A DNA stretch of 64,000 nucleotides, from assembly GCA_009911065.1 (NCBI GenBank), contig QXWR01000029.1, positions 1-64,000 on the forward strand. The letters run 5' to 3'. This stretch comes from Clostridiaceae bacterium (GTDB taxonomy: Bacteria > Bacillota > Clostridia > Lachnospirales > Lachnospiraceae). Positions 7,231 to 57,982 of this stretch are shown here, in pieces. Every line of letters begins with the position of its first letter. The first letter of the stretch is position 1. The notes below the pieces were generated by a model. The model was not told the DNA's origin, did no database searches, and was given only the letters and a program-made list of their open reading frames with translations. Made by a program: the position numbers and the translations under genes.

Positions 7231-7279
7231 TTTGTTCATAGAGTGAAACAGCCGCAGATGCAGGAAGGCGGTTCAAAGA

Positions 7280-7470
7280 AGAAGTAGAGGTTGCGTGAAG
7301 CATCAGTAGGCTGCCGGATGTTCCAGAGACAGGGGAAGGCAGTTAAAAGGGCGGACGCCGAAGGCAGGTACAGGCTGGATGTATTTGCCTGGGCGCAGGG
7401 TGAAGAACTCTGCGACTGTCATTCGGATTTTCAGTCTGGATGGAGAGCTGCTCATGTAGAAAAGATTATA
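7280..7470 (+). promoter_or_regulatory. Lysine riboswitch (L-box) of dapAB
   Basis: The 390-base leader of dapA contains the L-box landmarks in order: GTAGAGGTTGCG at the 5' side, AAAGGGCGGACGCCGAAGGC in the middle, GCCTGGGCGCAGGG, ACTGTCATTC, and GGATGGAGAGCTGCTC at the 3' side. P1 can form between AGTAG and CTGCT. It is followed by an intrinsic terminator and then a lysine-pathway operon, which fits lysine-induced transcription termination. Recognised by eye against the Bacillus lysC L-box; the boundaries are approximate. Confidence 0.88.
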
Positions 7471-19949: not shown

Positions 19950-21164
19950 TTAATCTTCAACCGTCAGTACACGTATGCCATTGCCAGACCAGGTATTTCC
20001 AATCACATAGGAGGTGTAGTTCCTGCCGGCAATGAGATTGGCCGAGAAGGACAGCAGAGGCTGGCGTATGCCGGAACCTGTGGCAACAGCGCCAATAACA
20101 ATAATGGGCAGCTCTCGGATGAAGGCATAAGTGTTGGAGTTTGCCAGATTGAACTGGTAGGAACCAGCCACTGCCTGTTTGTAAGAGGTGACGCTCTGGA
20201 AGCTTACGTTGCGGAATACGGTTTCTCCTCCAGTAAGAAGAAGATCATAGGAAGAGCCGCTGTAGGACATGTTGGCAAACCGGTAGCAGGCGGAACCAGA
20301 AGGAAGATTGGTGCAGCCAGTGTCTACCACACGAACCATTTCCAGACCGCCGGAGGCAGAATCCGTCAATACCATGGTAACTTTTTGATTGGAAACAAAT
20401 GGGAAATTCTGCTGCAGCAAAATATTGCGCATTCCATTGGCCCGGCGTACTGTAACTGTATGGAAACCGTCGGAAATCCAATCGTAGCTAGTGATGCAGC
20501 CAAAACTGGAATTAGCGGCGTAAATGGTGCTGTCAATGGTAATGCTGACAGCAAATGTATTGGTGGAAGCATTTAAAAAGCGGACCTGGCCAAAGTACTG
20601 TAAGGAACCGGGAGGGCAGACAGGGCCAACCGGGAAGGAAGGCATCCAGGTAATGTTGCAATTTCCCGGAGGATTGCCAGGATAGACCGGACCGCCTTCT
20701 CCAGGATTGGGAAGGGGAATCACTGCTTCACCCCCATTGCCGGGATAAACGGGACCGCCTTCCCCAGGGTTGGGAAGGGGAATCACCGCGTCATTCCCAT
20801 TGCCGGGATAGACCGGACCGCCTTCCCCAGGATTGGGAAGGGGGACAACCGCATCGTTCCCATTGCCGGGATAAACCGGACCGCCCTCGCCAGGGTTGGG
20901 AAGGGGAATCACTGCATCATTGCCATTGCCGGGATAGACCGGGCCGCCTTCGCCGGGGTTGGGAAGGGGGACAACCGCATCGTTTCCATTGCCGGGATAA
21001 ACCGGACCGCCTTCGCCGGGATTGGGAAGGGGGACAACCGCATCATTGCCATTGCCGGGATAAACCGGACCGCCTTCGCCGGGGTTAGGAAGGGGAATCA
21101 CAGGTTCGGTCTGCATTTGGGTCATGTCAGGAACTCCATTGTAGTGGGTATCATTTTCAGCCAT
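19950..21164 (-). CDS. DUF4397-like protein with N-terminal 21-residue tandem repeats
   Basis: A 404-residue protein in two parts. Residues 22-164 are seven tandem copies of a 21-residue Pro/Gly unit (PLPNPGEGGPVYPGNGNDA). Residues about 185-404 look like two DUF4397-type beta domains. These are marked by VRFLNASTNTFAVSITID with SYDWISDGFHTVTVR, and YRFANMSYSGSSYDLLL with SYKQAVAGSYQFNLA. DUF4397 occurs in surface or secreted proteins. No signal peptide or sorting motif is seen here, so the location is uncertain. The start ATG at 21164 has an AGAGGC-type site. It runs opposite to ldh, with no gene between. Function unknown. Confidence 0.8.
   Translation of the reverse strand: MAENDTHYNGVPDMTQMQTEPVIPLPNPGEGGPVYPGNGNDAVVPLPNPGEGGPVYPGNGNDAVVPLPNPGEGGPVYPGNGNDAVIPLPNPGEGGPVYPGNGNDAVVPLPNPGEGGPVYPGNGNDAVIPLPNPGEGGPVYPGNGGEAVIPLPNPGEGGPVYPGNPPGNCNITWMPSFPVGPVCPPGSLQYFGQVRFLNASTNTFAVSITIDSTIYAANSSFGCITSYDWISDGFHTVTVRRANGMRNILLQQNFPFVSNQKVTMVLTDSASGGLEMVRVVDTGCTNLPSGSACYRFANMSYSGSSYDLLLTGGETVFRNVSFQSVTSYKQAVAGSYQFNLANSNTYAFIRELPIIVIGAVATGSGIRQPLLSFSANLIAGRNYTSYVIGNTWSGNGIRVLTVED
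20673..21101 (-). repeat. Seven-copy 63-bp in-frame tandem repeat
   Basis: Seven consecutive 63-bp units, the last one truncated, in frame inside the gene at 19950-21164. Units differ at a few synonymous positions and at V/I and ND/GE choices near the end. Being a multiple of three, copy-number changes would not break the frame. Confidence 0.93.
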
Positions 21165-21265
21165 AAAAATGCCTCTGTGGGTTTTTAATTTACTGTATGA
21201 GAGAGAGGTTTTCCAAGTTCACAAAGAAAGCAAATTTTTTTGTTGAATCAATCCGAAAAAACTGG

Positions 21266-34769: not shown

Positions 34770-34934
34770 CTAGTATGACCCACACCAGTTACCATTATGT
34801 TTCGCGCAGGATAAATTTTCATCCTGCAAGGCGGAGGAGGGAGGCGATGTGGTGGCATCGTTGACCGACGACAACGAAGCAGGGGGAAATTTAGACAAGC
34901 GAAACATATGGTTAATTGGTGTGGGTCATACTAG
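34770..34934. repeat. CTAG-bounded 165-bp palindromic element, copy D
   Basis: Begins and ends with CTAG. The first and last 18 bases (CTAGTATGACCCACACCA) are a perfect inverted repeat, and complementarity continues imperfectly inward through ATGTTTCGC and GATAAATTT. The core has TGCAAGGCGGA, GGCGATGTGGTGGCATCG, then AACGAAGCAGGGGGAAA and TAGACAAG. It sits in the 415-base gap before the exporter operon at 35094. The ORF at 34849-35097 reads through it and is not treated as a gene. See the copies at 57568 and 57730. Confidence 0.9.
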
Positions 34935-45646: not shown

Positions 45647-46237
45647 ATGACGATGGATGAAAAACTGGATTTATTGCTTATGAATCAACAAGAGATGCAT
45701 GGGGACATTTTGGAGATGGGTAAGGACATTGCCGAACTTCAGAAAGGCCAGACGGAGATGCGCAAGGACATTGCCGAACTTCAGAAAGGCCAGGTGGAGA
45801 TGCGCAAAGATATTACCAAGATGCAAAATGACATCACCGAGATTAAAAAAGACCAGGTGGAAATGCGCAAGGATATTACCAAAATGCAAAATGACATCAC
45901 CGAAATCAAAAAAGACCAGGTGGAGACGCGCAGAGACATTACAAAACTTCAGAAGAACCAGGCAGAGGTGTGCAGAAATGTTTTTGCATTACAAGAGACC
46001 ACAGACAAAATGCAAAGTAGCATTAGCGGATTGAAGATGATGCTTGAAAATGAGACGAATTTCAACATCCAGCTGTTGGCCGAGAACCATGGAAATCTCA
46101 TTGATAAGCTAAATCAGGCAATTCCGGCAGTGAATCGAAATTTAGTGATGGAAGTGCAGTTTACCAGTCTCCGGATGCGCATTGAGAAGCTGGAGAAAGA
46201 TGTGATCGGTTTAAAGAAAGAGACGATACCAGCTTAA
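45647..46237 (+). CDS. Repeat-built coiled-coil protein
   Basis: A 196-residue soluble protein, almost entirely coiled-coil. Residues 27-110 are tandem units of 14 and 21 residues, that is whole numbers of heptads, such as DIAELQKGQTEMRK and DITKMQNDITEIKKDQVEMRK. The C-terminal part (NIQLLAENHGNLIDKLNQ) is less regular. AGGAGG precedes the ATG. It lies 135 bases after the DUF4132-type gene with its own extended -10 promoter and directly before RNase P RNA. No enzymatic domain; probably a scaffold or oligomerising protein. Confidence 0.8.
   Translation: MTMDEKLDLLLMNQQEMHGDILEMGKDIAELQKGQTEMRKDIAELQKGQVEMRKDITKMQNDITEIKKDQVEMRKDITKMQNDITEIKKDQVETRRDITKLQKNQAEVCRNVFALQETTDKMQSSISGLKMMLENETNFNIQLLAENHGNLIDKLNQAIPAVNRNLVMEVQFTSLRMRIEKLEKDVIGLKKETIPA
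45725..45976 (+). repeat. In-frame 42/63-bp tandem repeats
   Basis: Five consecutive units inside the coiled-coil gene: 42 bp (45725), 42 bp (45767), 63 bp (45809), 63 bp (45872) and 42 bp (45935). The two 42-bp units at the start are nearly identical, as are the two 63-bp units. Unit lengths of 14 and 21 codons keep the heptad register. Confidence 0.9.
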
Positions 46238-46332: not shown

Positions 46333-46676
46333 GGGAAGTAGGACAGATGGTCGCTGCCGCAGGGCCGAAAGGCGGCGGGAGAGGAAAGTCCGGGCTTCAC
46401 AGGGCAGGATGCCAGATAACGTCTGGCGGAGGCGACTCCAGGGACAGTGCAACAGAAATATACCGCCGGCAGAACCGGTAAGGGTGGAAGGGCAGTGTAA
46501 GAGACTACCGCCCGTCTGGCAACAGACGGGGCATATGTAAACCCCATCTGAAGCAAGACCGAACAGAAAGCATAAGGCGGCCCGTCTGCTTTCGGGTAGG
46601 TTGCTTGAGCCGAGCGGCGACGTTCGGCCTAGATAGATGACCATCTAAGACATAACCCGGCTTATCGTCCTGCTTT
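46333..46676 (+). ncRNA. rnpB: RNase P RNA, bacterial class A type
   Basis: The catalytic RNA that trims the 5' leader of pre-tRNAs. The universal core GAGGAAAGTCCGGGCT lies near 46380, with CACAGGGCAGG and GCCAGATAACGTCTGGC after it. ACAGAAATATACCGCC follows, and AGATAGATGACCATCT near the 3' end. The terminal helix P1 forms between GTAGGAC (46338-46344) and GTCCTGC (46667-46673). The ORFs reading through this region on both strands are spurious. Confidence 0.96.
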
Positions 46677-46680
46677 TCGT

Positions 46681-56500: not shown

Positions 56501-57487
56501 ATGAAGATGGAAACGGAAATAAAAATACACATAGCGGCAGTGATTGTTGGTTTTTTTCTGGATTTATGGATTGGAGATCCGGAAAGATGGCCGCACCCGG
56601 TTCGGGCAATGGGGTGGCTCATTGGGCGGCTGGAAGGAATGTTTCGTAAAATTTTTCCCAAAACTCCTGCAGGAGAGCTGGTGGCTGGCGGACTGCTGGC
56701 AGCGGCAGTGACAGCAGCCACAGGAGGTATTGTAACGGCGATACTCATAGCGGCCGGATGGATTCATCCGGCCTTGCGTTTTTTCTTTATGTGCATCATG
56801 AGCTGGCAGGCTCTTGCAGCAAAATCCCTGAAAACCGAAAGCATGAAGGTTTATGACCATTTGATGAGAGAGGACGTAGAAGGCGCCAGATGGGCGGTTT
56901 CCCGAATTGTAGGAAGAGATACAAAGCCATTGTCAAGGGATGGAATCATTCGGGCAGCAGTGGAGACGGTTGGGGAAAATACGTCGGATGGGGTGATTGC
57001 GCCGCTTTTTTATTTGCTCTTTTTTGGTCCGGTGGGAGGGTTTGTCTACAAGGCAGTGAATACCATGGATTCTATGGTGGGATACCGAAACGAGAAGTAT
57101 TTGTATTTTGGAAAGATTCCGGCCCGTCTGGATGATCTGGCAAACCTATTGCCAGCCCGCCTGACTGGTTTTTTACTTATTGGAACTGCATTTTTTCTTC
57201 CGGGTTTTGATGGAAAAGAGGCTTTTCGAATCTGGCGCAGAGACCGATATTGCCACAAAAGCCCCAATTCTGCGCAAGGGGAAGCGGCCTGTGCCGGAGC
57301 TTTGGGGATACAGCTGGCGGGTCCAGCCTGGTATTTTGGAAATCTCCATGAAAAACCATGGATCGGAGATGAGACCCGGCCAGTGGAGTCGGAGGATATT
57401 CGCCGGGTGAACCGATTGATGATGGGAAGTGCCTGGATGGCTTTGGGGGTGGGAATTGTGAGTGTGGTTTGGTTTGTAGGAATCTAA
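56501..57487 (+). CDS. cbiB: Adenosylcobinamide-phosphate synthase (CbiB/CobD)
   Basis: A 328-residue polytopic membrane enzyme that amidates adenosylcobyric acid with aminopropanol phosphate, late in cobamide synthesis. Family blocks are LDLWIGDPERWPHPVRAMG near the N-terminus, VETVGENTSDGVIAPLFYL (about 152-170), VGYRNEKYLYFGKIPARLDD and HKSPNSAQGEAACAGALG. It lies 3 bases after the glycosyltransferase; ATG 56501 or 56507. No other cobamide gene is adjacent. The CobA-like protein at 6706 might act in the same pathway. Confidence 0.93.
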   Translation: MKMETEIKIHIAAVIVGFFLDLWIGDPERWPHPVRAMGWLIGRLEGMFRKIFPKTPAGELVAGGLLAAAVTAATGGIVTAILIAAGWIHPALRFFFMCIMSWQALAAKSLKTESMKVYDHLMREDVEGARWAVSRIVGRDTKPLSRDGIIRAAVETVGENTSDGVIAPLFYLLFFGPVGGFVYKAVNTMDSMVGYRNEKYLYFGKIPARLDDLANLLPARLTGFLLIGTAFFLPGFDGKEAFRIWRRDRYCHKSPNSAQGEAACAGALGIQLAGPAWYFGNLHEKPWIGDETRPVESEDIRRVNRLMMGSAWMALGVGIVSVVWFVGI

Positions 57488-57567: not shown

Positions 57568-57733
57568 CTAGTATAACCCAACTTAAATACCTTTCTGTTT
57601 CGATGAGGATGCTTTTTCGAGAGCGCAAAGGAAAAAGCAGAGGCGTAGTGGTGCTACGTTGAGCATTTTTCCTTTGTGCTCTCGAAAAAGCAGACCAGCG
57701 AAACGTAAGGTTATTTAAATCGGGTTATACTAG
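57568..57733. repeat. CTAG-bounded 166-bp palindromic element, copy A
   Basis: Starts and ends with CTAG; the first 12 bases (CTAGTATAACCC) are perfectly inverted at the right end. Complementarity runs almost to the centre, including the long GCTTTTTCGAGAGCGCAAAG arm. The core is GAGGCGTAGTGGTGCTACGTTGAGC. It is in the same orientation as copy D at 34770, with which it shares CTAGTATRACCCA, TGTTTCG and the spacing to the core. The region from 57488 to 57990 has no gene. Confidence 0.9.
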
Positions 57734-57895
57734 TGTCTTGACCGTATTATATTCCGTCAAACCTCCTTGTCTATTTGTCCACCTGCTGCGTTGGATTTTC
57801 TAGCCGTAGCCACCGCTACGCCGTCGAAAATCCGCCTTGCAGATGAACAAATATCCTGCGGAGTTTCGCCAGATATAATACGGTCAAGACACTAG
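57730..57895. repeat. CTAG-bounded 166-bp palindromic element, copy B
   Basis: Shares a single CTAG with copy A and lies in the opposite orientation. The outer 23 bases are a perfect inverted repeat (CTAGTGTCTTGACCG and onward). On the minus strand its core reads TGCAAGGCGGA, then GGCGTAGCGGTGGCTACG, AACGCAGCAGG and TAGACAAGG. These match copy D closely although the outer arms have a different sequence. Confidence 0.9.
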
Positions 57896-57982
57896 TGTTC
57901 CATCCGGACAGAAAATGGAGTTGTGAGCGGTCTGGTGCGTGACAGACCGTTCACGACTTCGATTTCTGTCCGGATGGTGTAG
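57892..57982. repeat. 91-bp CTAG-bounded hairpin, copy C
   Basis: Begins with the CTAG that ends copy B and ends with GTAG. Arms CCATCCGGACAGAAA and TTTCTGTCCGGATGG, with a further near-perfect inner stem (GTGAGCGGTCTG / CAGACCGTTCAC), make one long hairpin. It lacks the TGCAAGGCGGA core and is shorter, so it may be a different unit that targets the same site, or a terminator of the minus-strand gene ending at 57991. Confidence 0.7.

Follow-up and report, generated by a model that had tools for sequence, protein, structure and literature searches.

ERIC elements, which occur in Enterobacteriaceae and Vibrionaceae according to a 2024 review (PMC10969869), are among the closest described systems for the palindromes reported here. 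In Photorhabdus, ERIC is described as resembling a subset of IS630 ends (PMC6267812), and in Yersinia it has been reported to affect mRNA stability (PMC2229807). For RUP of Streptococcus pneumoniae, mobilization by IS630-Spn1 has been proposed, and the same 2007 review presents the movement of such elements as being without experimental support (PMC2229807). Among IS630-type elements, ISY100 is described as duplicating TA (PMC2170065), and a preference of IS630 for TA within CTAG is given in the title of Tenzen and Ohtsubo (1991), as cited in PMC2170065. The beta-proteobacterial repeat element (BRE) is known from a small-RNA locus in Bordetella (PMC3110155). The titles and abstract openings that make up most of the literature considered describe no ERIC relatives outside Gammaproteobacteria.

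In this work, we analyzed 64,000 nt of the genome of a Clostridiaceae bacterium (Lachnospiraceae; contig QXWR01000029.1, positions 1–64,000; hereafter the window) and followed up its CTAG-bounded palindromes. Three of these stand end to end past an open frame whose stop codon is at 57487 and that, by eye, we take to be CbiB/CobD-like. Based on the letters and on a covariance model (R2), element A (57568–57733, plus strand) and element B (57730–57895, minus strand) are 166-bp palindromes, with CTAG at both ends and the CTAG at 57730–57733 in common. A third palindrome of 91 bp (57892–57982), absent from the original prediction, shares the CTAG at 57892–57895 with B. Element C (34770–34934, plus strand) is a 165-bp CTAG-bounded palindrome that represents the commonest element type in the genome. 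The perfect outer arms are 12 bp long in A, 23 bp in B, and 18 bp in C, and the elements fold into a single long stem in which interruptions recur and which ends in an apical loop. The elements carry inverted ends and no gene, and are scattered through the genome.

The core of B (57783–57841, minus strand) was located by pattern match and consists of TGCAAGGCGGA, a stem with an apical loop, and AACGCAGCAG; that of C was located in the same manner (34825–34882, plus strand). Both TGCAAGGCGGA and AACGMAGCAG are letter-perfect in B and C, which thus have the full core, and both are missing from A, in which the core is diverged and only the apical hairpin is retained. Cores fall into a short class (55–63 nt) and a long class (71–81 nt), and R2 is the covariance model of the short class. 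With R2, the minus-strand core of B was recovered at E 6.9e-25 (both B and C belong to the training set), and the plus strand gave the diverged core of A, at E 0.011 in a search of 82 kb and at E 0.054 in one of 398 kb. The original prediction had described the lengths, shared CTAG, and arm lengths of A and B, their opposite orientation, and a core that is clear in B and in a copy D (apparently element C) and partial in A, all of which agree with these results. In the third palindrome (57892–57982), R2 found no core, and this palindrome looks as if it were a core-less derivative. Its left end is that of two core-bearing elements (L102 and L149). Elsewhere in the window, we observed a class A RNase P RNA (46335–46680) and a lysine riboswitch (7277–7458), both ordinary, as well as direct repeats in register at 20610–21176 (63-bp spacing) and 45714–45986 (42- and 63-bp spacing).

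The exact core pattern has 13 matches in this genome vs. none for a reversed control pattern, and CTAG is present at the left end of all 13 copies, with 12 of them having it on the right as well. The A-type is represented by five full-length copies, including A itself, and by partial ones. Half copies, with the break close to the apical loop, were observed in L062, L079, and the partial A-type matches. With R2, 18 matches were found in this genome, and the spread among relatives is patchy: 17 of the 61 genomes surveyed are positive, with nine of 24 in the genus, under strict filters by which weak matches are lost. The R2 matches total 92 in 81 sources, and 58 of them have a terminal inverted repeat (at least 14/20) that starts at NTAN; the tetranucleotide is CTAG at the left in 43 and at the right in 45 of these 58, the other 34 matches having no clear terminal repeat and being left out of the end counts.

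We compared 23 CTAG-type palindromes with 1.34 Mb from a relative (G013), in which both flanks were present for nine. One of these nine is a clean empty site, in which a 64-bp A-type element with CTAG at both ends in this genome corresponds to a single CTAA in the relative; this is compatible with duplication of either TA or all four letters. Another site (L020) is near-clean, and the remaining ones are too diverged. In the region of the trio, the flanks are separated by 39 bp in the relative vs. 502 bp in this genome; the relative therefore lacks A, B, and the third palindrome, and the junction is too diverged for a clean empty site. Insertion at CTAG had been suggested beforehand, with further copies in this and related genomes and empty sites with a single CTAG as points to check. 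Such insertion is supported by the ends (13/13 and 12/13) and by the clean empty site of one copy in 23; the R2 survey gave further copies, and at the one clean site the relative has a single CTAA.

CTAG is rare in the window, with 18 occurrences where base composition predicts 234 and a second-order model 31; therefore, each inserted element brings new targets. Stacking on a common CTAG was found again in L168, and in L439 an element and an IS630 copy use one common CTAG. The rarity of CTAG, with new targets supplied at the ends of elements, fits as an account of this stacking. Separately, L408:1360–1640 and L412–L417 showed a double form of ~275 bp with two inverted cores within one CTAG-type end pair (read in L408), and adjacent inverted core pairs at four places in G031, as well as in G026 and G027.

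Candidate mobilizers with similar ends exist within the genus. Matches to DDE_3 (IS630) were found in eight of the 24 genus genomes, namely, five of the nine carriers and three of the 15 non-carriers, which is a weak association; this genome and the carriers G010, G012, and G013 have no DDE_3 match. Among the 10 DDE_3 loci inspected, CTAG-type inverted ends are present in L434 (one side only), L435, and L436, one CTAG-type end precedes the contig stop in L439, and the other six showed no such ends. The element in L436 is CTAG-bounded, 1355 bp long, and encodes a 398-aa IS630 protein (NCBIfam NF033545, E 7.6e-55). The IS630 frame is shortened in L439 and broken in L434 and L435; of three pieces from the latter two, one exceeds the family cut-off and the others match at lower scores. 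When compared with the ends of A and C, the right end of L434 is identical at 25–27 of 33 positions, its degenerate left end at 22–24 of 30, and the L439 end at 21–25 of 33. In comparisons of either L434 end with A and C, and of L439 with the right ends of A and C, none of 500 shuffles reached the score; the scores of the other L439 pairs were reached by 17 to 34 of 500. The ends of B match IS630 ends at no more than 13 of 33 positions, with a weak score for L436 that three to four of 500 shuffles reach. IS630-type ends are assigned to A and C by sequence, and may be extended to B by analogy. R2 found no match in G028, the genome that hosts L434, and no insertion sequence with matching ends was found in five Polaromonas-type genomes.

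With the dispersal of the elements, their CTAG ends, the clean empty site, and the genus IS630 copies that have A- and C-like ends, we consider it likely that these elements are non-autonomous MITEs moved in trans by IS630-type transposases into the TA of CTAG. IS630-family (Tc1/mariner) transposases would recognize the terminal repeats and insert the elements at the TA of CTAG, such that every insertion would leave a CTAG on either side of the element. Given the scarcity of CTAG, the ends of older elements would be favored targets, and end-to-end stacks on one CTAG would form; A, B, and the third palindrome may be stacked because element ends are favored CTAG targets. The payload would be a conserved core from a superfamily to which ERIC also appears to belong; this core stays, and the arms vary by host group. 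We infer that such a transposase acts on the elements, that the duplication is TA rather than all four letters, and that B is served by a similar enzyme with other ends. Movement by IS630 would account for the runs of CTAG-bounded hairpins in the window.

Single-stranded transposition, in which an IS200/RAYT-type HUH (Y1) enzyme recognizes the hairpin in a REPIN-like manner, would agree with the strand-specific folding described below and with the presence of Y1_Tnp genes in 17 of the 24 genus genomes. However, the element ends match IS630 ends, and Y1_Tnp is absent from the carriers G010, G012, and G018 (six, one, and seven copies; completeness 86, 83, and 92%). With the gene missing from three of the nine carriers in the genus, a Y1 transposase was rejected as the mobilizer, and we regard this route as very improbable. 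Other candidates were rejected as well. For the Polaromonas copies, an IS5-like origin (YTAR target) was considered, and none of 11 DDE_Tnp_1 matches in four of five genomes has the ends of the element; a lone 18/23 end match in this survey lies beside L443. Pairs of element copies (in L244, L202, L168, and L210) enclose frames that are not transposase-like by eye, and no transposase-like cluster was seen by eye among the listed neighbor genes across loci.

The core has an unexpectedly wide host range; neither the crossing of phyla nor the link to IS630 was part of the original prediction. A scan of species genomes with the pattern of TGCAAGGCGGA, 30–60 letters, and AACGNAGCAG found at least 119 genome loci (80 listed with titles) and six viral-contig loci, vs. 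roughly 15 expected by chance in the scanned collection by our own estimate. Among the matches listed, the arms beside the core are complementary (score ≥9) in 98 of 125 vs. two of 125 after shuffling; the 27 with lower scores, some of which end at contig edges, were left out. These 98 include isolates of Pseudomonas, Streptomyces, Polaromonas eurypsychrophila, Bdellovibrio bacteriovorus, and Roseburia inulinivorans, together with metagenome bins titled Nitrospirae, Deltaproteobacteria, and Bacteroides, for which binning is doubtful as usual. The invariance of the core in the scanned loci is by construction, as these were selected by exact pattern; in 33 non-redundant, model-picked R2 matches from the same order as the window (Lachnospirales), the core is the best conserved part. 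A plasmid search with a Polaromonas element gave seven records with partial matches only. In Pseudomonas, a long-class element was observed next to a PurH-like frame at six loci (L113, L119, L130, L150, L163, and L173), five of which have it between PurH- and PurD-like frames, these names being presumptive and assigned by eye. This fixed position suggests old or retained copies.

The elements form a single long imperfect stem-loop, and the 87 copies of this order that were examined lie between open frames (five of the 92 R2 matches were left out of this gene-context count, for short flanks). In two alignments, with structures derived from the same alignments that gave the scores, standard pairs make up 92.7 and 90.6% of the hairpin, and covariation is 0.734 and 0.718 vs. 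0.193 and 0.201 when shuffled and at most 0.145 when slid (at most 0.127 for the first). The predicted compensatory change of arms around a fixed core is thus upheld. The role as a structured RNA that had been drawn from it is not established by these data: Rfam has no family at the core in the window and in a set of eight loci, and the orientation relative to genes is inconsistent. In own-order copies, 30 cores are in sense and 23 in antisense orientation, with no bias; in tandem gene contexts of the wider set, outside this order, six are sense and 27 antisense, with loci in common not filtered out and with 33 of the 98 excluded for short flanks and 13 of the 98 for lying inside open frames of at least 150 codons. 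As these two sets disagree, orientation was dropped as an argument for RNA.

The two strands of the elements differ in their mismatches. With arms paired by Watson-Crick score alone and the 8 nt beside the core excluded, the core strand of 38 non-redundant elements has 83 G-T vs. 42 A-C mismatches and 82 G-A vs. 30 C-T. G-T exceeds A-C in 24 elements vs. eight with the reverse (six ties), and G-A exceeds C-T in 30 vs. six. This suggests that one strand, as RNA or single-stranded DNA, is selected to fold. An account that puts the RNA first, in which selection keeps the core as an RNA, either independent or cis-acting, and mobility is a secondary or former trait, draws on this asymmetry, on the strong covariation, on a Pseudomonas element whose gene junction is conserved across several species, and on the reported action of Yersinia ERIC on mRNA stability (PMC2229807). 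However, the copies are dispersed, patchy, and CTAG-ended, the core has no Rfam match, and the orientation differs between the two sets, such that we find this account unlikely.

The complementarity of the arms and the asymmetry may also be products of hairpin-templated repair and of strand-biased mutation, the fold itself not being under selection. Template switching can make long palindromes more perfect, which speaks for such an origin, and the copies broken near the apical loop are a sign of hairpin instability. Nevertheless, unpaired core letters are kept in the 33 non-redundant own-order copies (selected by model), fixed interruptions of the stem persist, and a bias linked to transcription or replication should cancel because gene orientation is mixed. 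An origin by repair and mutation alone seems to us improbable.

The relationship to ERIC was examined with two further covariance models, namely, R1 from 18 long-class sequences without ERIC and R3 from 10 ERIC copies only. In 100 kb of Escherichia coli, R1 detected ERIC at pgk-fbaA (19.5 bits) and ybhI-ybhJ (19.4 bits), with 10.1 bits for the next best match, and it detected all eight further enterobacterial copies (25.1–33.1 bits), i.e., ERIC at 10 of 10 distinct sites. R2 detected none of the ERIC sites. R1 also detected B (1.8e-9) and C (1e-6) in the window, which is partly circular as the pattern was taken from them; 15 of 21 own-order loci gave matches with R1, at 18 places. In the reverse direction, R3 was applied to the window, to 19 long-class and 10 short-class loci, and to one stretch of E. 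coli. Besides ERIC, it detected four long-class loci of the 19, namely, L110 (twice), L120, L161, and L167 (31.9–46.3 bits). The 10 short-class loci gave no match, nor did the window, which makes four of 29 core loci overall. R3 also found nothing in eight own-order loci. The chain from ERIC through the long class to the short class is supported stepwise, not end to end. From the results of R1 and R3, ERIC looks like one branch of a wider core family.

More tentatively, and with somewhat more doubt than belief, we propose that parasitic palindromes form an ancient, pan-bacterial family of which ERIC is one twig. Its invariant core, selected to fold on one strand, would swap arms as it passes between hosts and transposases, such that the lasting identity of the element would lie in the core and not in the ends. 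If true, the core would have a job common to distant bacteria, e.g., binding a universal factor as RNA or single-stranded DNA. Homologous cores in distant groups, together with arms like those of the genus IS630 copies, point to a candidate mobilizer, and the comparative set would allow the conserved core letters to be tested.

Compared with known systems, the window elements resemble REP and REPIN in being dispersed palindromes with stacked copies; unlike these, they are longer and CTAG-ended, and a Y1 transposase is lacking in some carriers. Integron attC sites, which go with R boxes and an integron integrase, were considered as a further comparison, as recognition there is of bulged, folded strands. 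BRE is likewise repeated and intergenic, with 29 copies described in Polaromonas JS666 (PMC3110155), and Polaromonas also hosts the present core; BRE is compared here by description rather than by letters, and is shorter (~90 bp). RUP is a MITE with IS630-type ends at TA, as described in PMC2229807; it is 107 bp long and is likened by its ends alone. ERIC (also IRU, RU-1, or MITEEc1) is given as 127 bp in the same review vs. 165–166 bp for the window elements, which have CTAG ends and other arms and are undetected by R3. Nevertheless, ERIC shares with them the gene-free, intergenic, long stem-loop form and TA termini, and models in both directions (R1 and R3) indicate a core homologous to that of the long class.
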